DNA from: Candidatus Zixiibacteriota bacterium
GTDB taxonomy: Bacteria > Zixibacteria > MSB-5A5 > DG-27
Assembly: GCA_030605835.1 (NCBI GenBank)
Contig: JAUWHO010000018.1
Location: 1-39,707, forward strand
Length of the DNA stretch: 39,707 bases
Direction of reading: 5' to 3'
This document shows, one piece after another, positions 14,960 to 37,778 of this stretch. Under the pieces are notes generated by a model, which was not told the origin of the DNA, searched no databases, and saw only the letters and a program-made list of their open reading frames with translations. The position numbers and the translations under genes are program-made. The first letter of the stretch is position 1, and every line of letters begins with the position of its first letter.

Positions 14960-14988
14960 TTGACTTTCGATTTTCAAACTTACATAGT
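14960..14988 (+). promoter_or_regulatory. Promoter of the four-gene envelope operon
   Basis: TTGACT (14960-14965), 17-bp spacer, CATAGT (14983-14988), giving a leader of about 80 nt before ATG 15076. Together with the pseudogene at 14386-14815 this accounts for the long gap 14272-15075. Nothing else is recognised there. Confidence 0.5.
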
Positions 14989-15075: not shown

Positions 15076-18000
15076 ATGAAACTATTTACCAACTTTCACA
15101 AGAAATCGATCCCTCCCCTGGCAGTTTTGCTAGTCCTGGTGTGGTGTCTGGGGCTTTTCGCCGGCACCACGGGAAAGATCAGCGGCCGGGTGACAGACGC
15201 CCAGACCAGAGAGGGTCTGCCGGGGGTGGCGGTGATGATCGAGGGCACCAAGATTGGTGCCGCCACCGACTTCGACGGCAACTACGTCATTCTGAACGTC
15301 GCTCCCGGAGTCTACAGGCTTTCTGCCAGCACCGTGGGCTACACCAAGATGGTCATGACCAATGTCGAGGTCAACATCGACAAGACCACCACCATCAATT
15401 TCAGGCTCTCCTCCGAAGCGATCGAGATGGAGACAGTGGAGGTGATCGCCGAAAAGCCGGTAATCGAGGCCAGGGTAACCCAGAACGACCGCAGCATAGG
15501 TGCCTCCGCCATTGAGAAACTCCCGGTTATAGACGTTCAGGACATTTTGGCCACCGAGGTCGGTTTCGTCAGCAGAGGGGATCAGCTGCACGTTCGTGGG
15601 GGTCGAGCCGGGGAGGTCAAATTTCAGATCGACGGCGTGGACGTCAACGACCCTCTGGGAGTGAACGCCCCCAGAACCCAGGATCCCCGTATTGAGGACT
15701 CCTCCGGGCAGCGCCAGCAATTGCAGCAGCCACCCCACATATCCATGAATGTGGCCTCCTCCAACATCGAGGAGATCAACATCATCAAATCCGGGTTCAG
15801 CGCCGAGTATGGAAACGTCTCGTCGGCGGTGGTGAATTTGGTCACCAAGGAGGGCTCCAATCAGCGCACCAGCGGGCGCATCGAATACTATACTGACGAT
15901 CTGGGCTTCCCCTCCTTGAACAAGTATTCTTTCAACAGCGACCGGCTTGACTGGAATCTCTCTGGACCGGTCCCGCTTATCTCTGATGTTTTGCTGCCAA
16001 CAATGGGGTTAGAGTGGCCGGGAGAGAGGATGGCTTATTACCTCTCCTTCACCGTTGACAAGACAGACACTTACAAGCCTTATAATGAATATGACACTCC
16101 CTCGACCAGGAAGAGTTTCGGGTACAACCAGCAGATGTGGGACTGGTTCGGAATCAAAGTCCCCAACAGGCAGAACAACTACTACAACGCTCTCGCGAAG
16201 GTGACTTACGGTTTCCGGCCCAACATGAAGTTCGACTTCAAGTATTCTAAGGAGTGGCAGGAGAACACCGTCTGGGACTGGGACTTCAGATATACTCCCT
16301 CCACCGCCCCTCATTACACCCAGAACGGGGAGGTCCATCAGCTCACCTTCAAACACACTCCGGGCTGGCTCAAGAACAGCTTCTACCAGGTTCTGATTTC
16401 GAGGTATGTTATCGAGTCGGAGCACAAGCCCGGAGGTCTTGTTCCGGGCGACTTCCTCTTCTGGGATGAATGGGAATCTTACACCGACGCGAACAACAAC
16501 GGTGAGTGGGATCCGGCGGAGTCGTATGTGGACGCCAACGGGAACGGACAGTACGATTTCGGCGAACCATACTCTGACAAAAACGGCAACGGTTACTGGG
16601 ACGAGGCCGAGCTTCTGAATGATACCAACGGCAATGGGCTTTTCGACCCCGAGCGGGAAAGCGTCTATGAGCCGGACGACCCTGAGCCATATCTCGACGG
16701 CGACCGTTCCGCCGGGGAACCTTTCGAGGACGTCAATCGCAACGGCGTCTACGACGAGGGAGTGGACATCTTCACCTTCGCGGACGACTTGAACGGGAAC
16801 GGCCGCTACGATGGGCCAAACGACCCTTGGAGTCCCGGCATCCCTTTCGAGGATTTGAATGGCAATGGTGTTTACGATCCTCCCAACTTACAGTATGACC
16901 TCGGAGAGCCTTACGTCGATCTGAACGGAAACGGCCGCTGGGATCCCCGGGATCTCTTCTTCGACTTCGGTTTCGACCGCCGCATGACTTACACTCATAA
17001 GAGGAGCACCATCTGGACCTTGAAGTTCGACATCACCAGCCAGCTCACCCCGGAAAACGAGATCAAGAGCGGGTTCGAATATAAGTGGAACAACGTCCGC
17101 ATGGAGGATCTAAGGTACCCGTTCAGCTACTACGGTGGCGTTCCCGACACCACCGAGCTTTGGTCTGATAAGGGCACCTTCAGGGATTTCTTCACCCGCA
17201 CCCCCGAACAGGGGGCGGTCTATATCCAGGACAATATCGTCTACGGAGCCATGGTTGCCAACGTCGGCCTGCGCTACGATTTCTTCAAGCAGGCTCCGGA
17301 GGTTTGGGACATCCCAGAAGAGGAAGCCCAGTATCAATTCGGTTCCCACGATTCCGTCAGCAACCAACAGAACAAGTTCTCACCTCGACTGGGGATCTCT
17401 TATCCGATTACTGACCGAGCCAAGATTTACTTCAACTACGGGCATTTCTATCAACTTCCAGCGTTTTCTCAATTTTACGCCCGGGCCACTCAGACCTTTG
17501 GGCGAGCACTGCCGATAGTGGGGAACGTCAACCTCGACTACACCAAGACCATCGCTTATGAAATCGGGGTCGCCTATCAGGTCGGCAACAACTACAAACT
17601 GGACATCTCTGGATTCTACAAGGATTACTACGGACTGATCAATGCGATCGAGGGTTTCGGGACCACGGTCTTCCAGCCGAGTATGTACGCCAACAACGAT
17701 TATGCTCGCACCCGAGGTTTCGAGGTGGAGTTGACCAAAAGCTACGGTCAGTACTTAACCGGCAGCCTCGATTACGAATACTCCTGGGCTTTCGGTAAAA
17801 GCTCCACCGACATTGCTGACTATTACCTGCGGGCCAACAACCAGGAGATCCCCATTCAGGAGTTCCCCCTGGATTGGGACATCCGCCATCAGTTGACCAT
17901 AAACACCGATTTCCGGGTGCGTAGGGGTGACAGTCCCAGATTAGGCCCCCTGAAAATCCCGGACAATTGGGGATTAAACCTTCTGTGGCAGTTGAAGTCC

Positions 18001-18339
18001 GGCTTCCCTTACACTCCTGGGGAACGTCATCCCGAGGTCGTTTTGGTGGGCAGACAAGCTCCTATCCCCAATTCCATGAGGATGCCCGGCAGCTCGAACA
18101 TGGATCTCCGCTTCAACAAGGATTTCGGGGCCTTAGGCTTTAACTACTCCTTCATAGTCTGGGTGACCAACGTTTTCGACACTAAAAACGTCTTTACGGT
18201 TCACACCGATACTGGTCGGCCCGATACCAGGTTCTTGAGCAGCGACGGTTTGATTATAACCGGAATGGAGCACGACGCCAATCCAACTCACTGGGGACCG
18301 GGCAGAAACATCAAGGTGGGATTGAGCATGTCGTTCTAG
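15076..18339 (+). CDS. TonB-dependent-receptor-like outer-membrane protein with EF-hand-like insert
   Basis: 1087 aa from ATG 15076 (GGAGG 7 nt upstream; the TTG at 15070 lacks support). A signal peptide leads into a carboxypeptidase-regulatory-like domain (GKISGRVTDAQTREGLPGV, ATDFDGNYVILNVAPG). A plug domain follows (IGASAIEKLPVIDVQDILAT, VRGGRAGEVKFQIDGVDVND) and then a long beta-barrel rich in aromatic girdle residues, ending in a short strand with terminal Phe. Roughly residues 468-625 interrupt the barrel with eight D-x-N-x-N-G-x-(Y/W/F)-D calcium-loop motifs. Such SusC-like or T9SS-associated plug-barrels move large ligands or assist surface assembly; the substrate here is unknown. A GC-rich hairpin and the next gene follow at once. 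Confidence 0.9.
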   Translation: MKLFTNFHKKSIPPLAVLLVLVWCLGLFAGTTGKISGRVTDAQTREGLPGVAVMIEGTKIGAATDFDGNYVILNVAPGVYRLSASTVGYTKMVMTNVEVNIDKTTTINFRLSSEAIEMETVEVIAEKPVIEARVTQNDRSIGASAIEKLPVIDVQDILATEVGFVSRGDQLHVRGGRAGEVKFQIDGVDVNDPLGVNAPRTQDPRIEDSSGQRQQLQQPPHISMNVASSNIEEINIIKSGFSAEYGNVSSAVVNLVTKEGSNQRTSGRIEYYTDDLGFPSLNKYSFNSDRLDWNLSGPVPLISDVLLPTMGLEWPGERMAYYLSFTVDKTDTYKPYNEYDTPSTRKSFGYNQQMWDWFGIKVPNRQNNYYNALAKVTYGFRPNMKFDFKYSKEWQENTVWDWDFRYTPSTAPHYTQNGEVHQLTFKHTPGWLKNSFYQVLISRYVIESEHKPGGLVPGDFLFWDEWESYTDANNNGEWDPAESYVDANGNGQYDFGEPYSDKNGNGYWDEAELLNDTNGNGLFDPERESVYEPDDPEPYLDGDRSAGEPFEDVNRNGVYDEGVDIFTFADDLNGNGRYDGPNDPWSPGIPFEDLNGNGVYDPPNLQYDLGEPYVDLNGNGRWDPRDLFFDFGFDRRMTYTHKRSTIWTLKFDITSQLTPENEIKSGFEYKWNNVRMEDLRYPFSYYGGVPDTTELWSDKGTFRDFFTRTPEQGAVYIQDNIVYGAMVANVGLRYDFFKQAPEVWDIPEEEAQYQFGSHDSVSNQQNKFSPRLGISYPITDRAKIYFNYGHFYQLPAFSQFYARATQTFGRALPIVGNVNLDYTKTIAYEIGVAYQVGNNYKLDISGFYKDYYGLINAIEGFGTTVFQPSMYANNDYARTRGFEVELTKSYGQYLTGSLDYEYSWAFGKSSTDIADYYLRANNQEIPIQEFPLDWDIRHQLTINTDFRVRRGDSPRLGPLKIPDNWGLNLLWQLKSGFPYTPGERHPEVVLVGRQAPIPNSMRMPGSSNMDLRFNKDFGALGFNYSFIVWVTNVFDTKNVFTVHTDTGRPDTRFLSSDGLIITGMEHDANPTHWGPGRNIKVGLSMSF
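16473..16965 (+). repeat. Eight EF-hand/dockerin-like repeats inside the barrel gene
   Basis: The encoded motifs in order are DANNNGEWD, DANGNGQYD, DKNGNGYWD, DTNGNGLFD, DVNRNGVYD, DLNGNGRYD, DLNGNGVYD and DLNGNGRWD. Most are preceded by a Glu-Pro-(Y/F) or similar linker. The spacing is that of calcium-binding loops. They are expected to lie in one extracellular loop. Confidence 0.85.
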
Positions 18340-18354
18340 TTTGGAAGTCATGAA

Positions 18355-18389
18355 GCCGGGGCGGGGAGGGAGAAACCAACCGCCCCGGC
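18355..18389 (+). other. Intercistronic GC-rich hairpin
   Basis: GCCGGGGCGG (18355-18364) pairs perfectly with CCGCCCCGGC (18380-18389) across a 15-nt loop, 15 nt after the receptor stop. No T-run follows. It is more likely an mRNA 3'-end stabiliser or partial attenuator than a full terminator. Confidence 0.6.
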
Positions 18390-18430
18390 CATTGAGCATA
18401 TCCGCTGAACGAAATATCTGGAGTTAGTAG

Positions 18431-20986
18431 ATGGAGAAAACTAAATTGAAAATCGGAAGTTTGTTGCTGGCAGCGGCAGCTTTCCTTCTGGTCTGGGGAC
18501 AGTTTTCAGTTCTGCCCGCCCGCACCAACGACCAGAAAGAGCGCCCCTTCCGTCTGGAAAAAGTGACCGGCACCCCCAACCTGCTCAATTACACCCACCG
18601 CATCTCCAATCTCTGGTTTACAATCCAGAACAATGGGCTTTTGGGCAGTTTCATGGGGGAGAACATCGACCCCGAGACCCTGGAAGCCGCCCCTTCGTGT
18701 GAATTCCCGGCGGGATCAAACATCGAGTATCTCTTCGAATGCGCCCTTTGGATCGGGGCCATCGTCGATGGCGACACCCTGATCTCCTGCGGCACCGATG
18801 GCTGGTGGGACATCCGGGAGATGTATCCAGACGAGGCCGGCAAGATCACCGGCGAGATCTGGTTGCGCTCCACCAGGCCACCGAGCGCCTATCCTCGTAA
18901 TCGCACCGACATCTATCCAAATCAGATCGACAGCAGCTCCGCGGGAACCCCACAGGGGGACAAGTTCGGGATTGAGGCCATCTCCGAGGAGGATTTCATC
19001 GCCACTTACACTGATACCAACACCGCCTCCTTCGTGGAGGTCGATCCCATCGATCAGCGCATCCACAAACCCCTGTGGGTGGAGATCGTCCAGAAGAGCT
19101 ACAGCTGGAGTTACGAGTATGCCGAGGATTTCTTGCTCTTAGACTACGAGGTCACCAACATCGGAAACCAGGAGCTGGAGAATCTCTGGCTTGCCTTCCA
19201 CGTCGATGCCGATGTTGCCCACAGTGGCGCCGGTTCTCCGGGTGCCCAGGACGATATGACCGGCTTTCTGGAGAAGTACCCGACCATCGAGGGCATTGAC
19301 TCCCTCGAGATCTTCACCGGCTATATCGCCGATGTTGACGGCGACCCCACCGGTGGAGTCTGGGATTACAGGAGCTGTCGTGGAGTCTCTGGGGTGAGGG
19401 TAGTACGTTCCCCCTCAGAAACCATCGGCTTCAACTGGTGGATTTCCAATACCAACGCCGCTTTTGACTGGGGACCACAGCGTGCCGACAATTATCGGAT
19501 ATACCAGGATGGGAACATGGGGACTCCCACCGGAGACCCCGGCAGATACTACGCCATCTCCAACGGCGAGTTCGACTACGACCAGATAACCTGTGCTTTG
19601 AATCACCAGGGCGAAGGCTGGTTGCCACCCTTATCACCTTCGGGCAATGCCAAAGACTTGGCCAACGGCTACGACACTCGTTATACATACTCCTTCGGAC
19701 CCTTTGAAAAGATTTCCCCGGGTGACACCCTCATCGTAACCGTGGCCTACATCTGTGGCGCCGACTTTCACGTCCGCCCGGATGACGCCGACGCCTTCAT
19801 AGACAGTCCCGACGACGAGGCTCTGGTGAACGAGTATTACTCCCGCCTAGACTTCGCCGATTTCGCCATCAACGCCACCTGGGCGGGGTGGGTTTACGAC
19901 AACCCCGGGGTGGACACCGACGGTGATGGCACTCGCGGCGAATTCGTTTTAAACGCCGAAGGTGATACCGTTTGGATCAAGGGCGACGGGGTTCCAGATT
20001 TCGCGGGACCGCCGCCACCACCCTCACCGGCGTTAACCTTCAAAGTCTCGCCCGGAGTAGTCACCATAATCTGGAACAGTCTGGAGTCAGAGAACCAGAA
20101 TGACACTTTCAGCGGACTCAACGATTTCGAGGGCTACAAAGTTTACTGGTCAAAGACGGGACGGCTGGACGATTACGACCTTCTGGCGGCATACGACTAC
20201 ATCGATTATGACTCGATTTTTCATGAATCCGGCAGACTCAAGAAGTGGAAGAAGCCCCCGATTCGCTATGAGGCTTTGAAGGAGAAACATCCGAACATTG
20301 ACTTTTACAAATACCCGCCCTATGCCCCCTTGCCTCAGGGGGGATATGACACCTTGTATACGCCTCACAGTTTTAACATAGGTTTTGGAGACAGCATCGA
20401 TCTGGAGCTTGATCCTGACCTGGAGGATGTGATACTGGATTCCACCACCATCTATGTTGACGAGATCACCGGCGACACCACCAACGTGAGGTGGTATTCT
20501 AAGAAGTTCAAGGACCTTTTAGAGAGCCAGGCGTTGTATTTCGCGGTGACCTCTTTTGACTACGGGAACCCGGTTACCAAGCTATCCCCGATAGAATCGT
20601 CCAAGGCCATAAACGCTACCCTGTTGTATCCGACCGCGACCGGTGAGGACATCACCGGGGAGGTATTTGTGTTTCCCAATCCTTACCGAATAGATGGCGG
20701 ATATACCGATGCCGGTTTCGAGGATCCCGACCATTCGGGTTGGACTCCCTGGGATCGGCGAATCCATTTCGGCAACCTGCCGGAGAAGTGCACCATCAGG
20801 ATATTCACATTGGATGGGGATTTGGTGGACACCATCGAGTATGATCGCAGCCTCCCCGGGACCCTGGAGTTTGCTGAGTGGAACCTGATCTCCCGCAACA
20901 CCCAAGCGGTGGTCTCGGGGCTGTACATCTTCGCGGTGGAGTCCGAAAGCGGAAACTACCTGGGCAAATTCGTTATCATCAAATAG
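18431..20986 (+). CDS. Large exported protein with T9SS-like C-terminal domain, partner of the receptor
   Basis: 851 aa starting ATG 18431 with a hydrophobic export signal. The body is beta-rich and includes NLWFTIQNNGLLGS near the N-terminus and a central region in which DYEVTNIGNQELENLW suggests an immunoglobulin-like fold. A fibronectin-III-like stretch (VTIIWNSLESE...GYKVYWSKTG) lies near residue 540. The last 115 or so residues (VFPNPYRIDGGY, SGLYIFAVES, KFVIIK) resemble a sorting/anchoring domain related to, but distinct from, the NYPNPFN type. No catalytic motif is visible. It begins 91 nt after the receptor gene and 45 nt before the PorV-like gene. I infer a surface component of the same complex, perhaps analogous to SusD-like or PorU-dependent cargo, without homology evidence. 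Confidence 0.8.
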   Translation: MEKTKLKIGSLLLAAAAFLLVWGQFSVLPARTNDQKERPFRLEKVTGTPNLLNYTHRISNLWFTIQNNGLLGSFMGENIDPETLEAAPSCEFPAGSNIEYLFECALWIGAIVDGDTLISCGTDGWWDIREMYPDEAGKITGEIWLRSTRPPSAYPRNRTDIYPNQIDSSSAGTPQGDKFGIEAISEEDFIATYTDTNTASFVEVDPIDQRIHKPLWVEIVQKSYSWSYEYAEDFLLLDYEVTNIGNQELENLWLAFHVDADVAHSGAGSPGAQDDMTGFLEKYPTIEGIDSLEIFTGYIADVDGDPTGGVWDYRSCRGVSGVRVVRSPSETIGFNWWISNTNAAFDWGPQRADNYRIYQDGNMGTPTGDPGRYYAISNGEFDYDQITCALNHQGEGWLPPLSPSGNAKDLANGYDTRYTYSFGPFEKISPGDTLIVTVAYICGADFHVRPDDADAFIDSPDDEALVNEYYSRLDFADFAINATWAGWVYDNPGVDTDGDGTRGEFVLNAEGDTVWIKGDGVPDFAGPPPPPSPALTFKVSPGVVTIIWNSLESENQNDTFSGLNDFEGYKVYWSKTGRLDDYDLLAAYDYIDYDSIFHESGRLKKWKKPPIRYEALKEKHPNIDFYKYPPYAPLPQGGYDTLYTPHSFNIGFGDSIDLELDPDLEDVILDSTTIYVDEITGDTTNVRWYSKKFKDLLESQALYFAVTSFDYGNPVTKLSPIESSKAINATLLYPTATGEDITGEVFVFPNPYRIDGGYTDAGFEDPDHSGWTPWDRRIHFGNLPEKCTIRIFTLDGDLVDTIEYDRSLPGTLEFAEWNLISRNTQAVVSGLYIFAVESESGNYLGKFVIIK

Positions 20987-21031
20987 AATCGGTGTGGAAA
21001 AGAAGTGATTTGAGACAGTTAGGAGAATAAT

Positions 21032-21967
21032 ATGAAGAAGATCACAGTCGTCGGCCTGGCGATTCTTCTGACGTTGTCGGTCTCGGAGCTGGCTTTCGCG
21101 CAAGCCAAAGTCGGCACCGCCGGAGGACAGTTTCTGGAGATCGGGGTGTCGGCGCGAGCGGTGGGGATGGGGGAGGCGTTCATCGCAAACTGCGACGATG
21201 CCTCCGCGGTCTATTACAATCCGGCCCTGATCGCAACCCTCCCCCAGGCTCAGGTGATGCTCACTCACATTGACTACCCTGCAGATATCAACTATGAATT
21301 TGCGGCTCTGACCCTGCCGGTGCCACAGCTCCTGGGGGCCTTGGGTTTCGGCTTTTACTACCTGTCGACCGGTGATATGCCGTTGACCGATTATACTTAC
21401 CCACGAGGCAACGGTCAGACCTTCACTGCCCGAGACATTGCCGCCAGCGTCTCTTACGCCGCCAGCCTTACCAACCGTTTCTCGGTCGGCATCACCGTGA
21501 AATACATCGGGGAGTTCCTGGAGGAAGAGAAGGCCGTCGGCTGGGGTGCAGATGTCGGCACTCTCTATGAAACCGGCTTCAGGAATTTCAAGATCTGCAT
21601 GGTGATAGCGAATTTCGGCTCGGATAAGAAATTCATCGAGGAAAGCTACCCCCTCCCGATGGACTTCAAATTCGGAATGGCCATTGACGCTGTCAGTAAC
21701 AGCTCTCACCGGGTGGTGCTTGCGGTCCAAGGTTCCCATCCCAACGACAACCTGGAGAAATACAACACCGGGATGGAATACTGGTACAACGATATGGTCG
21801 CCTTGAGGATCGGCAACAGATTCGAAGATGATGCCGGAGGCGGTTTCACCGCCGGAGCCGGAGCGAAAATCCCGCTCTCGGGAGTAACTCTGCAAGCCGA
21901 TTACGGATATCACGACTTCGGCTGGCTTAAGGAGGTGCACCGCTTCTCCTTAGGTTTCTCATTCTAA
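21032..21967 (+). CDS. PorV/PorQ family outer-membrane protein
   Basis: 311 aa with a signal peptide ending near LAFA. The mature start carries the family hallmark GGQFLEIGVSARAVGMGEAF, then DDASAVYYNPALIA. A series of amphipathic strands forms a FadL-like 14-stranded barrel, closing with FSLGFSF. In Bacteroidetes, PorV shuttles T9SS cargo from the SprA translocon to the PorU sortase. PorQ-type relatives are also T9SS-linked. The family match is firm, but whether this copy is the general shuttle or one dedicated to this operon is unknown. AGGAG lies 6 nt before ATG 21032. Spacings of 45 and 37 nt to its neighbours indicate one transcript. Confidence 0.88.
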   Translation: MKKITVVGLAILLTLSVSELAFAQAKVGTAGGQFLEIGVSARAVGMGEAFIANCDDASAVYYNPALIATLPQAQVMLTHIDYPADINYEFAALTLPVPQLLGALGFGFYYLSTGDMPLTDYTYPRGNGQTFTARDIAASVSYAASLTNRFSVGITVKYIGEFLEEEKAVGWGADVGTLYETGFRNFKICMVIANFGSDKKFIEESYPLPMDFKFGMAIDAVSNSSHRVVLAVQGSHPNDNLEKYNTGMEYWYNDMVALRIGNRFEDDAGGGFTAGAGAKIPLSGVTLQADYGYHDFGWLKEVHRFSLGFSF

Positions 21968-22004
21968 GGTTTTGAGCAATAGCGGTTGCAGGAGGACACT
22001 TTAG

Positions 22005-23882
22005 ATGTTAACCAGGAATAGCTTATATCTCAAGCTGGGGGTAGTTTTCGCGATCACCATCGCTCTGGCATTACTGATCGGTTGCTCTTTGAAGAAGAAA
22101 GGGACTGCCTATGTAAATATTCCCCCGGTGGTTTTCTTCGCCAACGTCCCCAACGATTCCTCTTCTCTAGGTTATAATCCGGTTGTGGCCTGGTACGGAA
22201 CCGACATCGACGGTTACATAATCGAGTTCCAATACGTTGTTGTGAGGGACGCCGACCTCGGCGGAGTCTCACCAGCCGATTTCGCACAGGACTTCCCCGA
22301 CACCATCACCGATTGGATAGCGGTGGAGGGCACCCAGGACACCGTCCAGTTATACGCCTCGACTGACCCCAATGTATATATCAAGCAATACATATTCCTC
22401 CGCGCCTTAGATGACGACCAGGCAGTCTCCAGCATCAAATTCCGGACTCTCTCGAGGAATAACCACGCGCCGGCCACCGAAGGATGGTATCTTCTACCTT
22501 ACAGCCGCTTCGAGCATTGTGACGGTGATTCGTTTCCAATCTTCTATTGCTTGCCAGAGTTGAGCGACGAATTTGGAGGAATAGCCTTCCAGTGGTCTGG
22601 TTCAGATACCATCGATTACCCCGGAGACCAACCCCCCTTCGAATACCACTGGGCACTTTACGGTCCGCACGATACCTGTTACATCGACACCGCCCAGGTG
22701 GGGATATACGTTAACAATGGGGTGAGGTATGAGTCCTACGATTCCACCGCCAGTGATGTATGGGTCACAGACCAGTCTGTGGCCATGGCGGGTCTTCGCA
22801 GTGGCTATTATCTGTTTATGGTCAGAGCTCGCGATGACGCCTTCGTTCCCGACCCCACCGCGGCTATCGGCCTCATGCACGTAGTCGAACCGCTTTTCAT
22901 AAGCGACCCGGATTTGGCCACGGACATCGCCTTTGTTGACCTCTCTCGCTACGACCAGCACGCCATCTACAGGAAGGGTCAGGAGACTGTTCCCGATTCC
23001 CTGAGGGGGTTTTTCTATCGCGCCTTCGAGTCTGCGGGGATCGACTCTGCAACTCAAGTCGCCTTCTTCAGTGAGCCCAGTGGGGCCAATCAAGATCCAA
23101 TCCCGTTTTCGGAGGTGTTCAACTATAAACTCTTGCTGGTAGTCAACGAGGGGTACCGTTTCGCCATCCAACAGGATAAGCCCTGTGAAGAGCTTCGCTG
23201 GTATTTGCAGGCGGGTGGGATGGTGTGGATTGTCGGGAGACAGTGCTTTAAGTATCATAATACAGACACGCTCTGGTATTTCGAGGAAACTTTCGAAAGT
23301 GACCTATTGGCGGCTGATTACCTCGATCTCGAGACCAGTTGGTTCATAAGGTGGATACCCAGTCCGTTATTCCAGACCCAGGAGTTCATAGGAGCCTCTG
23401 CTTCCGCCAGCGATTTCCCCGATTTGTCGATAGACTCAACCCAGGTGGCTAGGATCTTCTACGGCGAGGCTTGGGATACCACCAAACTCCCCGGTGTGGA
23501 ACGGTTCTCCAGGGGCAGCAATTCCGAAACCCTGTATAAATTCATCTCTGGCGAACCAGAAGGCTCCAGCTTTCACGGCTGGCCGGTAGCTACGCGCCGA
23601 CAGGGTCCCAATTACAGATGTTCCTACTTCGCCTTCCCCCTCCACTACATTAAGCAAGAGCAGGCTAACCAGGTGATGTCCCTGATGCTCGGATGGTTTT
23701 TCTCACAACCGCCGTCGATTTACAGACAACCAATGCCTAGCTACATCAAGCAGAAGCAGATTAGTGAGATGATGCCCACCACCGTCAGATTGCATTTCTC
23801 GGAAACGCCATCAATTTACAGTAACGGGGGATCGACACCTCAACTCTCCTCTGGTCGTTCCAAAGTCACTCGCAATCCCTGA
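22005..23882 (+). CDS. Lipoprotein with Ig-like and GATase1-like regions, duplicated C-terminal segment
   Basis: 625 aa. The N-terminus has a lipobox (LALLIGC near residue 27), so it is probably a lipoprotein of the periplasm or cell surface. Residues about 38-150 (PPVVFFANVPNDS, VVAWYGTDIDGYI) look like an Ig/Fn3 module. From about residue 300 the pattern IAFVDLSRY...YKLLLVVNEG...LRWYLQAGGMVWIVGR resembles the Rossmann-type GATase1-like fold of the DUF4159/ThuA kind, without a visible catalytic triad. The last two segments are an imperfect 28-residue repeat, YIKQEQANQVM...PPSIYR and YIKQKQISEMM...TPSIYS. It is the final gene of the operon, and a strong terminator follows 25 nt after the stop. 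Role unknown. Confidence 0.8.
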   Translation: MLTRNSLYLKLGVVFAITIALALLIGCSLKKKGTAYVNIPPVVFFANVPNDSSSLGYNPVVAWYGTDIDGYIIEFQYVVVRDADLGGVSPADFAQDFPDTITDWIAVEGTQDTVQLYASTDPNVYIKQYIFLRALDDDQAVSSIKFRTLSRNNHAPATEGWYLLPYSRFEHCDGDSFPIFYCLPELSDEFGGIAFQWSGSDTIDYPGDQPPFEYHWALYGPHDTCYIDTAQVGIYVNNGVRYESYDSTASDVWVTDQSVAMAGLRSGYYLFMVRARDDAFVPDPTAAIGLMHVVEPLFISDPDLATDIAFVDLSRYDQHAIYRKGQETVPDSLRGFFYRAFESAGIDSATQVAFFSEPSGANQDPIPFSEVFNYKLLLVVNEGYRFAIQQDKPCEELRWYLQAGGMVWIVGRQCFKYHNTDTLWYFEETFESDLLAADYLDLETSWFIRWIPSPLFQTQEFIGASASASDFPDLSIDSTQVARIFYGEAWDTTKLPGVERFSRGSNSETLYKFISGEPEGSSFHGWPVATRRQGPNYRCSYFAFPLHYIKQEQANQVMSLMLGWFFSQPPSIYRQPMPSYIKQKQISEMMPTTVRLHFSETPSIYSNGGSTPQLSSGRSKVTRNP

Positions 23883-23907: not shown

Positions 23908-23939
23908 AAGAAAGAGGCCGGCTAACCGGCCTCTTTCTT
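23908..23939 (+). terminator. Strong, probably bidirectional terminator
   Basis: AAGAAAGAGGCCGG-CTAA-CCGGCCTCTTTCTT: a 14-bp perfect stem with a 4-nt loop and T-rich flank on the plus strand. It also serves as A-rich/T-rich on the minus strand. It separates the envelope operon from the convergent DUF4416 gene. Confidence 0.9.
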
Positions 23940-24020
23940 TCTATCCGCTTACTGATCGCAACCACATCCCGGGTTGAGTCCACAGTCCATAGCTTGCGGT
24001 TCAGGGACAGATTCAGGCCC

Positions 24021-24069: not shown

Positions 24070-24603
24070 TCACCTCAACTGCGACAAATATCGTTCCCTG
24101 ACTCTCAGCAAGAAATCCTTCACCCTCTTTGTTCGATAATCGGGATATGTCCATTCCAACTCCTCGAACCGACCCTGTCTGAAGATCAGACTCACCTCGG
24201 CGAATATCCCCCCCTTTAGATATATGCGATGGGAGAAGTTCTTAGTACTGGCCAAAACTAACTTGCTGGCTTCCAGATAGCCGGGGTCGATATTCACTCT
24301 CCGTTTCAATTGACCGGGGACTACCTCGCCGAACCGTGCCTCCATACGATTTGTGAGAATCTTTATCTCCGCCAGATCTCCGGGATCGATCAGGTTCGCA
24401 AAGCTCAAGATGGCTCTTTTCAGACTCTCACCCATCTCTGTGCAGTAATACCGAGTGAAATCGAACGGGAACGGTTCGGTCTCCAGATCGATCTGGCCGA
24501 ACGGAGCCGCCAAAGTTGCCTTCACCTCCTCGTAGGATATGTTCTCGGAGAGAATCAAACCACAAAGAAGCTTGACCTTCTCAGGCTTCCCTATCTCGCC
24601 CAC
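24070..24603 (-). CDS. DUF4416 family protein
   Basis: 177 aa from GTG 24603, chosen because GGGGAG lies just upstream and homologous sequence begins there (GKPEKVKLLCGLILSE). An upstream in-frame extension only reads through the neighbouring gene out of its frame. Conserved stretches typical of DUF4416 are FDFTRYYCTEMG, RRVNIDPGYLEASKLVLAS, KNFSHRIYLKGGIFAEV and LEWTYPDYRT. Function of the family is unknown. Its start overlaps the end of the Fe-S protein gene by 23 nt, so the two are translationally coupled. The family length is usually about 180 residues, so this copy is full length. Confidence 0.88.
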   Translation of the reverse strand: MGEIGKPEKVKLLCGLILSENISYEEVKATLAAPFGQIDLETEPFPFDFTRYYCTEMGESLKRAILSFANLIDPGDLAEIKILTNRMEARFGEVVPGQLKRRVNIDPGYLEASKLVLASTKNFSHRIYLKGGIFAEVSLIFRQGRFEELEWTYPDYRTKRVKDFLLRVRERYLSQLR

Positions 24604-25282
24604 TGTCTCCCCTGCAGACTTTGACACAGAGTCCGCAAATGTACTGCCCGAAGTTCGCCTCTCTGGAGAACTTGCGAAGCTGCTCAAAGCACACCAGATG
24701 GTCAAACTCCTCCGGTCTTTCTTTGATGGCTCCAACTGGACAGACCTCCAGACAGAGTTTGCACTCACCGCAATCCCCACTCATCGGCTGATCTGGATTC
24801 AAGGGGATATTGGTTAACACCGTGACCAACCTTATCGCCGATCCGAAGCGAGGATTGACCAAGAGATTGTTTCTCCCTAACCACCCCAATCCCGCCAGTT
24901 GAGCAATCCGTTTGTGGGAGAGGTGAGAGGTCTGCTTTTTCCAATCAACGATGTAAGAGGCTGCAATTGGCAGAGCATCAAAGCCGAACGTGGTGATTCT
25001 GGATGAAATTCTGGTGGCGAGGTTATCCAAAAACATGTTGGTGTGGCGATAATGGGTCTTGTAGACGTGGGTCGGTCTGTCGATTATAGTCTCAAGCACT
25101 GGTGCAGACAAGACCGCCGCCATTGAGATGCCATACCTGAGCTCCCTTGCCGCCTCTCTGATCTCCTCGTGGAAACTCTCTGTCTCCAAGTTGATCTCCG
25201 CCACGCCAAAGAGCGCGGCTCCCGAAGAGAGAGCCTCACCCCTCAAAAGCTCAGTATAATCTCCCTCTCTTCCTTGTGACAT
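24581..25282 (-). CDS. QueG-related double [4Fe-4S] protein
   Basis: 233 aa. The N-terminal half resembles the cobalamin-binding half of epoxyqueuosine reductase (SSGAALFGVAEI, AASYIVDW, AQLAGLGWLGRNNLLVNP, GSAIRLVTVLTN). The C-terminal half has two four-Cys sets: C171-x2-C174-x2-C177-x3-C181-P and C198, C216, C219, C223. True QueG proteins are longer, with C-terminal HEAT-like repeats, and act on tRNA. This short form lacks them, so I call it a paralog of unknown substrate. ATG 25282 has no ribosome site. The promoter at 25291-25320 places the transcript start about 2 nt before it, suggesting a leaderless mRNA. DUF4416 follows in overlap. Confidence 0.85.
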   Translation of the reverse strand: MSQGREGDYTELLRGEALSSGAALFGVAEINLETESFHEEIREAARELRYGISMAAVLSAPVLETIIDRPTHVYKTHYRHTNMFLDNLATRISSRITTFGFDALPIAASYIVDWKKQTSHLSHKRIAQLAGLGWLGRNNLLVNPRFGSAIRLVTVLTNIPLNPDQPMSGDCGECKLCLEVCPVGAIKERPEEFDHLVCFEQLRKFSREANFGQYICGLCVKVCRGDSGRDREA

Positions 25283-35417: not shown

Positions 35418-35446
35418 TTGACTAAATATCAGTCAGCAGCTATATT
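35418..35446 (+). promoter_or_regulatory. Promoter of the GT39/TPR gene (leaderless)
   Basis: TTGACT (35418-35423), 17-bp spacer, TATATT (35441-35446). A start seven to eight bases past the -10 falls on the ATG at 35454. Confidence 0.6.
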
Positions 35447-35453
35447 TTTTCGA

Positions 35454-37778
35454 ATGTCAGAAAAGCTCCGGAAGATCTGCTTGCTTTTGAGCATCATTCT
35501 GTTGGCTGCCTCAATTCGGGGAGTCTATCTTTATCAGAGCTGCGCCAACAATCCCGGCTTCGACACCCCCTCCATCGATTCTCTCTATCACGACCGCTGG
35601 GCACAGGAGATCACGTCCGGGGACTTCTGGGGAGAAGGGACCTTTTTCCGTGCTCCCCTTTACCCCTACTTTCTGGCTGGGATTTACGCTCTTTTCGGTC
35701 ACAACTACTTGGTGCCTCGACTCTTTCAGCACCTCTTGGGCTTGGTGGCGTTACTCCTCATCTATTTCGTAGGCAGAAAGGTCTTCGACCGGAGAACCGC
35801 CCTTCTATCCGCCTTCGTTGGTGCCTCATACTGGGTCTTCATCTACTTCGAGGGCGAGCTTCTCTTAGACTCTCTGGCGATGCTTCTGAATCTTATCCTG
35901 ATCTATTACCTCCTCTTTTGTAGTCTGGACTCCTCCAGGTGGAGATGGCTGGGGGCCGGGGCGCTATTGGGTCTTTCTGCCATCACCCGCCCCAACATCT
36001 TGATCTTCATTCCGGCGGTCTGGCTCTGGATCTACCTCCTCTCCCGTGAGAAAAACGAATTGAGAAGGGCTCTTTCTGCTGCGCTTTTCTTCCTGTTGGG
36101 CGCACTTTTGCTGATCTTTCCGGTGACTCTGAGAAACTTCCTGGTTGGTGAGGATTTCGTCCTCATCGCCTCTCAGGGAGGCATCAATTTCTACATTGGA
36201 AACAATCCTCATTCCGACGGGGGCACCGCCAATCTCCCGGAGTTCGGCAATACCTGGGAGTATAGTGATGCTCGATTTCTGGCCGAGCAAGAAACCGGAA
36301 AGCTGCTCAAGCCCTCCGGTGTCTCTCGCTTCTACTACCGACGGGGCTTAGATTTTGTCTTTGAGGAACCGACTAAGTTCTTAAAGCTCCTCTCAAGAAA
36401 GCTCTACCTCTTCACAAACAGCTTCGAGATCTCCAACAATCAGGACCTCTACTTCGCGAAACGTTACTCTTCTATAACTAATTATCTCCCCCTTGGGTTT
36501 CAGCTCATCGGTCCTTTTGCGCTTTTAGGCCTTCTCCTCCTCGCTATTAACAGAATCAAACGGACAAGAAAGGTAAACATAACAATCTTTTTCGTCCTTT
36601 TTTATTCCCTCTCGGTGATCGCTTTTTTCGTCACCGCCCGGTTTCGCCTGCCGATTCTGCCCTTCATGATACTCCTTGCCGGCAGAGCGTTTTTCTGGTT
36701 GTGGGAGACTTTGAGGGAGAAAAAAGTCCGGGAATTCAGCTGTGCTCTAACTGTTCTGTTGATTCTGGGGACAGTGGTAAACACTAACTGGGCTGGGATG
36801 AGCACTACGAATTACTCTCAAGCCTATTTCAATCTAGGCAATACCTATCTACGTCAGGGGAACCTCCAGAAAGCCCTGGAGAGTTACCAAAAGGCCTCGG
36901 ACGAGAATCCGGCTCAGCCCTTAGTGCACTTAAACGCCGGCACCATCTATTTCGCCCAGAGGGAATATCAAAGGGCCGAAGAGGAATTCAAAAGGGAGAT
37001 AGAGGTCGATCCCGGCGAGGCCAAAACTTATAATAATCTCTCGGTGCTGTCGAGGCTCAGAGGTGACTACGCCGCCGCGGAATCATATGCCAGCAACGCC
37101 ATCAGCTTGAAGGAGAATTACGAGGCCGCATATTACAATTTGGCTTCGGCGCAGAGGCAGGCGGGAAGAGCCGATGAGGCGGTTAAGACTCTGACATCCA
37201 CTTTGGACAAGTTTCCCGATTTCGGCAACATCTTGTTGCTTCTGGGACAGATATATCAGGAGCAAGAGGATTTGGAAGAGTCCAAAGAGGCGTATTTGAG
37301 ACTGGTATCGTTCTCTCCCAGAGGGACTTTCTCCGGCTACGACTTATCGACAATCTATAGCGAAGACTTGCCTTACTCCACGGAGATGACTGAGCTTCAG
37401 GCCAAGGCTCACTTCAATCTGGGCATAATCGAGTTGACCGCAGGCAATCTCCAGGGTGCGATAGATGACTTCAGCGAGTCAACCAAGCTGAAACCTGAGT
37501 TCGCAGAGGCCTGGGAGAACCTCGGCCTCTGTTATGACCTCCGCGGAGACCACGAGACCGCTCTCTCTCTAATGCAGAGGGCGATCGAAAACGACCCCGG
37601 GAATCCGGTCTATTATTTTAACATCGCTTTGACCTGGGCCAAGTCCGGGGATTTGGAGAAGGCACGAGAGAATCTGCAAAAGGCCCTGAGGTTGAATCCC
37701 GATTTCTCGCAGGCAAAAGAGAAAATCAACCTCGTAGAGAGACTTCTCCGCTCCCAGAAAGCAAACAGGCAACAGTAA
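35454..37778 (+). CDS. GT39-like membrane glycosyltransferase fused to TPR repeats
   Basis: 774 aa from ATG 35454; the in-frame TTG at 35418 lies within the promoter and is rejected. The first 430 or so residues are a polytopic membrane region of the ArnT/PMT type (GT39): HDRWAQEI followed by FFRAPLYPYFLAGIYALFG in the first periplasmic loop, then about ten helices with AITRPNILIFIPAVWLW. Such enzymes transfer sugars from polyprenyl-phosphate donors. The acidic residue expected in the first loop is probably in YHDRWAQE. From about residue 455 to 765 come roughly eight tetratricopeptide repeats (AYFNLGNTYLRQGNLQKALE, AEAWENLGLCYDLRGDHETA). Acceptor unknown. No ribosome site is seen, consistent with a leaderless transcript. 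Confidence 0.87.
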   Translation: MSEKLRKICLLLSIILLAASIRGVYLYQSCANNPGFDTPSIDSLYHDRWAQEITSGDFWGEGTFFRAPLYPYFLAGIYALFGHNYLVPRLFQHLLGLVALLLIYFVGRKVFDRRTALLSAFVGASYWVFIYFEGELLLDSLAMLLNLILIYYLLFCSLDSSRWRWLGAGALLGLSAITRPNILIFIPAVWLWIYLLSREKNELRRALSAALFFLLGALLLIFPVTLRNFLVGEDFVLIASQGGINFYIGNNPHSDGGTANLPEFGNTWEYSDARFLAEQETGKLLKPSGVSRFYYRRGLDFVFEEPTKFLKLLSRKLYLFTNSFEISNNQDLYFAKRYSSITNYLPLGFQLIGPFALLGLLLLAINRIKRTRKVNITIFFVLFYSLSVIAFFVTARFRLPILPFMILLAGRAFFWLWETLREKKVREFSCALTVLLILGTVVNTNWAGMSTTNYSQAYFNLGNTYLRQGNLQKALESYQKASDENPAQPLVHLNAGTIYFAQREYQRAEEEFKREIEVDPGEAKTYNNLSVLSRLRGDYAAAESYASNAISLKENYEAAYYNLASAQRQAGRADEAVKTLTSTLDKFPDFGNILLLLGQIYQEQEDLEESKEAYLRLVSFSPRGTFSGYDLSTIYSEDLPYSTEMTELQAKAHFNLGIIELTAGNLQGAIDDFSESTKLKPEFAEAWENLGLCYDLRGDHETALSLMQRAIENDPGNPVYYFNIALTWAKSGDLEKARENLQKALRLNPDFSQAKEKINLVERLLRSQKANRQQ

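Follow-up and report, generated by a model that had tools for sequence, protein, structure and literature searches.

An ancient outer-membrane operon of Zixibacteria and other phyla encodes a TonB-dependent receptor, a protein with a PorZ-like tail, a PorV/PorQ-family barrel and a lipoprotein

Four consecutive genes at positions 15076-23882 of the window (the whole stretch of 39,707 nucleotides that was analysed) raise the question of whether the receptor, exported protein, barrel and lipoprotein that they encode form one outer-membrane unit, and by what mechanism such a unit might be held together. The first-pass annotation had proposed a surface complex linked to the type IX secretion system (T9SS) that was neither a classical SusCD system nor the core T9SS. 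The open reading frames were found in the order A-B-C-D with gaps of 91, 45 and 37 nt, as had been described, and the features of the locus were as follows.

14960-14988, plus strand: weak sigma-70-like promoter match, TTGACT-17-CATAGT, 9/12 positions, not above chance
15076-18339, plus strand: gene A, TonB-dependent receptor with CarboxypepD_reg, plug and barrel domains (Pfam PF13715, PF07715, PF00593)
16486-16953, plus strand: eight DxNxNGxxD calcium-loop repeats of A in a single block (aa 473-628, numbered from TTG 15070)
18431-20986, plus strand: gene B, 851-aa exported protein with an N-terminal beta-supersandwich, an FnIII-like middle and an Ig-like, T9SS-type C-terminal domain
20657-20983, plus strand: variant, PorZ-like C-terminal sorting or anchoring domain of B, about aa 743-851
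21032-21967, plus strand: gene C, dedicated PorV/PorQ-family outer-membrane barrel, assigned by family model, nearest structure and tree
22005-23882, plus strand: gene D, lipoprotein with two FnIII/Ig-like domains followed by a glutamine-amidotransferase-like domain
22083-22085, plus strand: lipobox cysteine of D, Cys27, invariant in 12/12
23908-23942, plus strand: intrinsic terminator of the operon, 14-bp stem and 4-nt loop

The most likely start codon of gene A is ATG 15076, with GGAGG about 7 nt upstream, rather than the alternative TTG 15070. Of the transcription signals claimed earlier, one promoter and one strong terminator, only the second stood. The hairpin at 23908-23939 has a perfect 14-bp stem (z = -4.2) and is a real and strong terminator, missing though it was from the output of the consensus scan of the region. 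The promoter match was one of 11 promoter-like sites found by that scan against 6.4 +/- 2.2 expected; being no better than chance, it is not evidence.

The distribution of the unit was followed with D as the bait, since it is the most specific part, and the neighbours of D were left unused in the search. The D profile matched in 56 of 58 Zixibacteria relatives (43/43 among the high-quality genomes). In a wider set, 88 of 97 class members had D at E <= 1e-20, as did six genomes from other phyla. These six led to two further phyla, here called X and Y, which were listed exhaustively and carried D in 38/39 and 17/17 genomes, respectively. Profiles of A-D were then used to annotate the DNA surrounding D, and for each position the loci whose contig reached far enough were counted. 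C was the gene immediately upstream of D in Zixibacteria (45/45 loci) and phylum Y (14/14), and it lay within three genes of D in 22 of the 23 phylum-X loci. A was present upstream in all 39 Zixibacteria loci and in 10/10 and 15/17 loci of the other two phyla. Median gaps were 13 to 58 nt except in phylum X, where a beta-helix lipoprotein stood between A and B and, often, a protein of 1300-1800 aa and a TPR lipoprotein stood between C and D. Outside these three phyla, one genome (G153) had the order A-x-B-C-D and another (G183) the order A-B-D-x-C, and A-B-C trios occurred in about ten more genomes. With X and Y exhaustively listed at 39 and 17 genomes, the operon was present in at least four phylum-level lineages. 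Chance adjacency was ruled out by the C-D counts, and confinement to one clade by the recurrence of the order in these lineages. The proposal that the four genes form a unit was supported, and the opposite pattern, families occurring mostly apart, was looked for across three phyla and did not occur.

One part of that earlier picture had to be given up, namely B as a fixed member of the unit. B lay between A and C in only 22 of the 40 testable Zixibacteria loci (13/13 and 17/20 in the other two phyla), and many Zixibacteria families had an A-C-D operon together with B elsewhere in the same genomes. Because B is inside the operon in both X and Y, the four-gene form was probably the ancestral one. 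When located elsewhere, B was often found as three tandem paralogues behind two M16 peptidases (L174-L177, families f7).

The flanks of the operon were kept as well. A lipoate-protein ligase before A and a PMT_2/TPR glycosyltransferase facing D were conserved in Zixibacteria, and part of phylum Y had conserved flanks too, which favours vertical descent. The gene unit is real, old and present as a single copy, and A-B-C-D is best explained as an ancient, vertically inherited outer-membrane operon. Literature searches, with few subscription papers and preprints in scope, found no account of this gene order or of a Zixibacteria T9SS, and in the literature covered the unit is apparently undescribed. 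An operon that is so highly conserved, is present in single copy and includes two gene families that Pfam lacks is likely to be important for the cell.

Gene A proved to be the plug-barrel receptor that had been described, with Pfam matches to CarboxypepD_reg (2e-20), plug (1e-6) and TonB barrel (8.5e-25), and TonB is encoded in the same genome. Across the three phyla, each of the 58 operonic A proteins contained 3-12 DxNxNGxxD motifs, compared with a background of 0.7% of other proteins of like size having three or more, and most of the sister receptors in the A-B-C trios had none. These repeats suggest that the surface loops of A bind calcium. The architecture of A, a carboxypeptidase-like domain, plug and barrel, is that of SusC, and together with TonB and with an N-terminal half of B resembling the beta-supersandwich of carbohydrate-active enzymes (GH116) it would agree with a nutrient importer of the SusCD kind, B or D replacing SusD as the surface lid of A and C only helping to deliver B. 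Such an importer is nevertheless rather unlikely, since A scored only 61 bits against the SusC/RagA model, whose cut-off is 368, neither B nor D matched SusD, and the unit is one conserved copy per genome across phyla, whereas substrate-specific Sus loci multiply and vary. A TonB-dependent receptor encoded with surface proteins is what the operon shares with SusCD; the constant presence of a PorV-family barrel and the deep conservation of a single copy set it apart. The near-universal single copy fits a housekeeping role better than the uptake of one nutrient.

C belonged to the PorV/PorQ family as first described, with 217.9 bits against NF033709 (curated cut-off 90), and its closest solved structure was PorV (6h3i_F, 6.9e-23). 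In Pfam it matched the PorV, FadL and UPF0164 models and not PorP. Against the equivalog models it reached only 80 of 250 bits for NF033710 (PorV) and 122.6 of 220 for NF033711 (PorQ), so that C fell outside both core proteins and the unit was distinct from the core T9SS as well as from SusCD, as had been claimed. In a tree of 66 PorV/PorQ proteins, a single clade of 60 rows (94/90; inner set of 58, 95/93) held the C proteins linked to A, B or D, and within it Zixibacteria, X and Y each formed a supported group. The clade left out the PorU-linked PorV of the genome that the window comes from, the PorQ of that genome and three other proteins; some of the outside branches are long and the exact root is unsure. 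The earlier idea of a dedicated PorV-like protein was in this way upheld.

The core T9SS of that genome is encoded outside the window. SprA (737 bits) and PorU (733 bits) both exceeded their curated cut-offs (contigs C46 and C42), a PorV-like protein (L028) directly followed PorU, a PorQ-like protein was found at L029 and a PorZ fragment at L026 (1.7e-36), from which we conclude that a T9SS is present with its own PorV and PorQ. Recent T9SS papers and reviews describe the system as exclusive to Bacteroidota, with one PorV serving all type A cargo. The full signature of SprA, PorU, PorZ and PorV in Zixibacteria departs from these Bacteroidota-only descriptions, and a PorV-family paralogue is kept across phyla alongside a single cargo, receptor and lipoprotein. 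In the same genome the PorV-like protein adjoining PorU (L028:4352-11164, C42) was 859 aa long, with an insertion of about 500 aa within the PorV domain, and a separate locus (L025:3770-8779, C42) encoded a lipoprotein, a T9SS-type cargo and two consecutive PorV-family genes.

Gene B matched no Pfam or NCBIfam family above cut-off. Searching solved structures with profiles of B and D brought up nothing useful, and neither did PHROGs. The predicted structure of B was of medium confidence (pLDDT 78) and resembled beta-supersandwich domains (GH116 and the periplasmic domain of YidC), FnIII domains, PorU (6za2) and PorZ (5m11). The first fold matches in the PDB had whole-chain TM-scores of only about 0.2, and B is for that reason described here at the level of domains only. 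The variant sorting-like tail noticed earlier was confirmed at the C-terminus (PNPY...SGLYIFAVE...GKFVIIK). At E 0.1, B matched neither TIGR04183 nor PF18962, by which type A cargo is recognized, in contrast to other proteins of the window. Broadly defined, B does qualify as a T9SS substrate, having a signal peptide and an Ig-like C-terminal domain and being encoded in a genome that also has SprA and PorU, and export through the T9SS is the best reading of these features.

A profile built from 113 B tails was run on all retrieved open reading frames. Its best match other than B was the PorZ of the same genome (42 bits), followed by a 92-aa fragment (36 bits) and the cargo beside the two PorV genes at L025 (26 bits), while the remaining cargo tails scored 9-23 bits; B-type tails grade into type A tails. 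The PorU tail model matched about 46 places in the genome, which represent the ordinary type A cargo; three lie in the window, and B was not among the matches. These profiles set the tail of B apart from ordinary type A sorting tails, and PorZ is its closest match outside the B family. B could all the same be an ordinary cargo that depends on the core PorV and PorU for sorting and shares its operon with A, C and D for joint expression only. This would account for two type A features that the tail of B retains, an Ig-like fold and the conserved lysine, and for the tandem arrays of B paralogues without C. We regard this as distinctly unlikely, because the type A models and the PorU tail model miss the tail and the top score lies with PorZ, and because C is always near D and adjoins B in most loci with B in the operon.

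PorZ of Porphyromonas is held at the cell surface by PorQ (PMC5562754), and it retains an uncleaved tail (PMC8545088). Barrels of the PorP/SprF type export or anchor their own cargo and are encoded directly downstream of the cargo gene, and PorP also partners the lipoprotein PorE in PG1035-PorP-PorE (PMC9143113, PMC12618676). Taken with the PorZ-like tail, these precedents make C a likely private anchor of B, the best-supported mechanism, to which we would give about an even chance. The likeness to PorQ-PorZ lies in a PorV/PorQ-family barrel and in a C-terminal domain that matches PorZ best. The differences are that the genome has its own PorQ and PorZ elsewhere, that B lacks the PorZ beta-propellers by profile, and that the operon of B and C also encodes a TonB receptor and a lipoprotein. 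With SprB-SprF and PG1035-PorP-PorE the unit shares a FadL-type barrel gene directly 3' of the cargo gene; unlike them, it has a barrel of the PorV/PorQ family, a cargo without a type B tail match, and a TonB receptor. A private pairing of C with B would represent a second route, beside PorP/SprF, by which a barrel becomes private to one cargo. Since roughly half of the Zixibacteria loci lack B in the operon, C may work with more than one B protein or have a different function.

Gene D carried the lipobox LIGC ending in the invariant Cys27, in agreement with its earlier description as a lipoprotein, and matched no Pfam or NCBIfam family above cut-off. Its predicted structure, of medium confidence (pLDDT 72), contained two FnIII/cadherin-like domains and a second half resembling domain B of GH42, a class-I glutamine-amidotransferase-like fold. 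DUF4159 was matched by the D protein of a second operon in the genome or by a relative. The view that this Rossmann-like half had no obvious counterpart was therefore not sustained. No cysteine nucleophile is conserved; Cys27, which bears the lipid, is the one invariant cysteine, and D is therefore unlikely to be an enzyme of the glutamine-amidotransferase class. A surface-export signal was sought in 72 D proteins, of which 24 had at least two acidic residues after the cysteine, and no clear signal emerged. A C-terminal extension of D (aa 570-625, 56 aa) was disordered and restricted to this genus.

A barrel of the FadL type encoded with a surface lipoprotein, single copy and core, also recalls BamG-BamH of the Bacteroidota BAM. 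C and D could then play the parts of BamG and BamH in a core envelope-building complex, with A as a further barrel and B as a later addition; the accessible text of PMC12611786 and PMC12578637 describes BamG as a FadL-type barrel that anchors a surface lipoprotein, and A-C-D without B is a stable core in several families, single copy and near-universal. We consider this reading very unlikely. PorV is the nearest solved structure to C, D matched no solved chain, and neither C nor D matched a BamG or BamH chain in a solved-structure profile search whose set may or may not contain those chains. A and B have no place in the BamG-BamH pair, and a TonB-dependent receptor is not reported as a BAM subunit in the same accessible text.

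With C as the candidate private anchor of B, the following mechanism can be proposed. B would be exported by its signal peptide and then use SprA, the T9SS translocon, to cross the outer membrane. C, reserved for B, would collect it through the PorZ-like C-terminal domain and keep it on the cell surface without cleavage, as PorQ does with PorZ. B, with its carbohydrate-type beta-supersandwich and FnIII domains, and the lipoprotein D would sit on or beside A, whose surface loop would be stiffened by calcium, and the four proteins would together constitute a TonB-linked surface complex serving uptake or another core task of the envelope. More tentatively, and with somewhat less than even confidence, A-(B)-C-D may be an undescribed core machine of the outer membrane in several FCB-related phyla, calcium-stiffened and TonB-linked, with a T9SS-exported subunit on its own PorV-type barrel. 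The parts are of known families and the combination is new. If the core-machine reading were true, the T9SS would build a housekeeping complex and not solely export enzymes and adhesins.

Several further observations were made around the locus. The genome contained a second, diverged A-B-C-D set (C51, L023) with one extra lipoprotein, whose D gave a match at 95% probability. In the nearest relative, Zixibacteria bacterium DG_27 (83% identity in B), gene B was frame-broken into 685 + 146 aa (L030, contig C119); the window copy was intact. A PMT_2 glycosyltransferase with TPR repeats at 35418-37778 had 29% identity (9e-83) to the homologue facing D in many Zixibacteria and, by this similarity, is a trace of the ancestral neighbourhood. 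Two overlapping open reading frames (233 + 236 aa) on the minus strand at 24070-25282 resembled one iron-sulphur protein gene split by a frameshift, perhaps that of epoxyqueuosine reductase.
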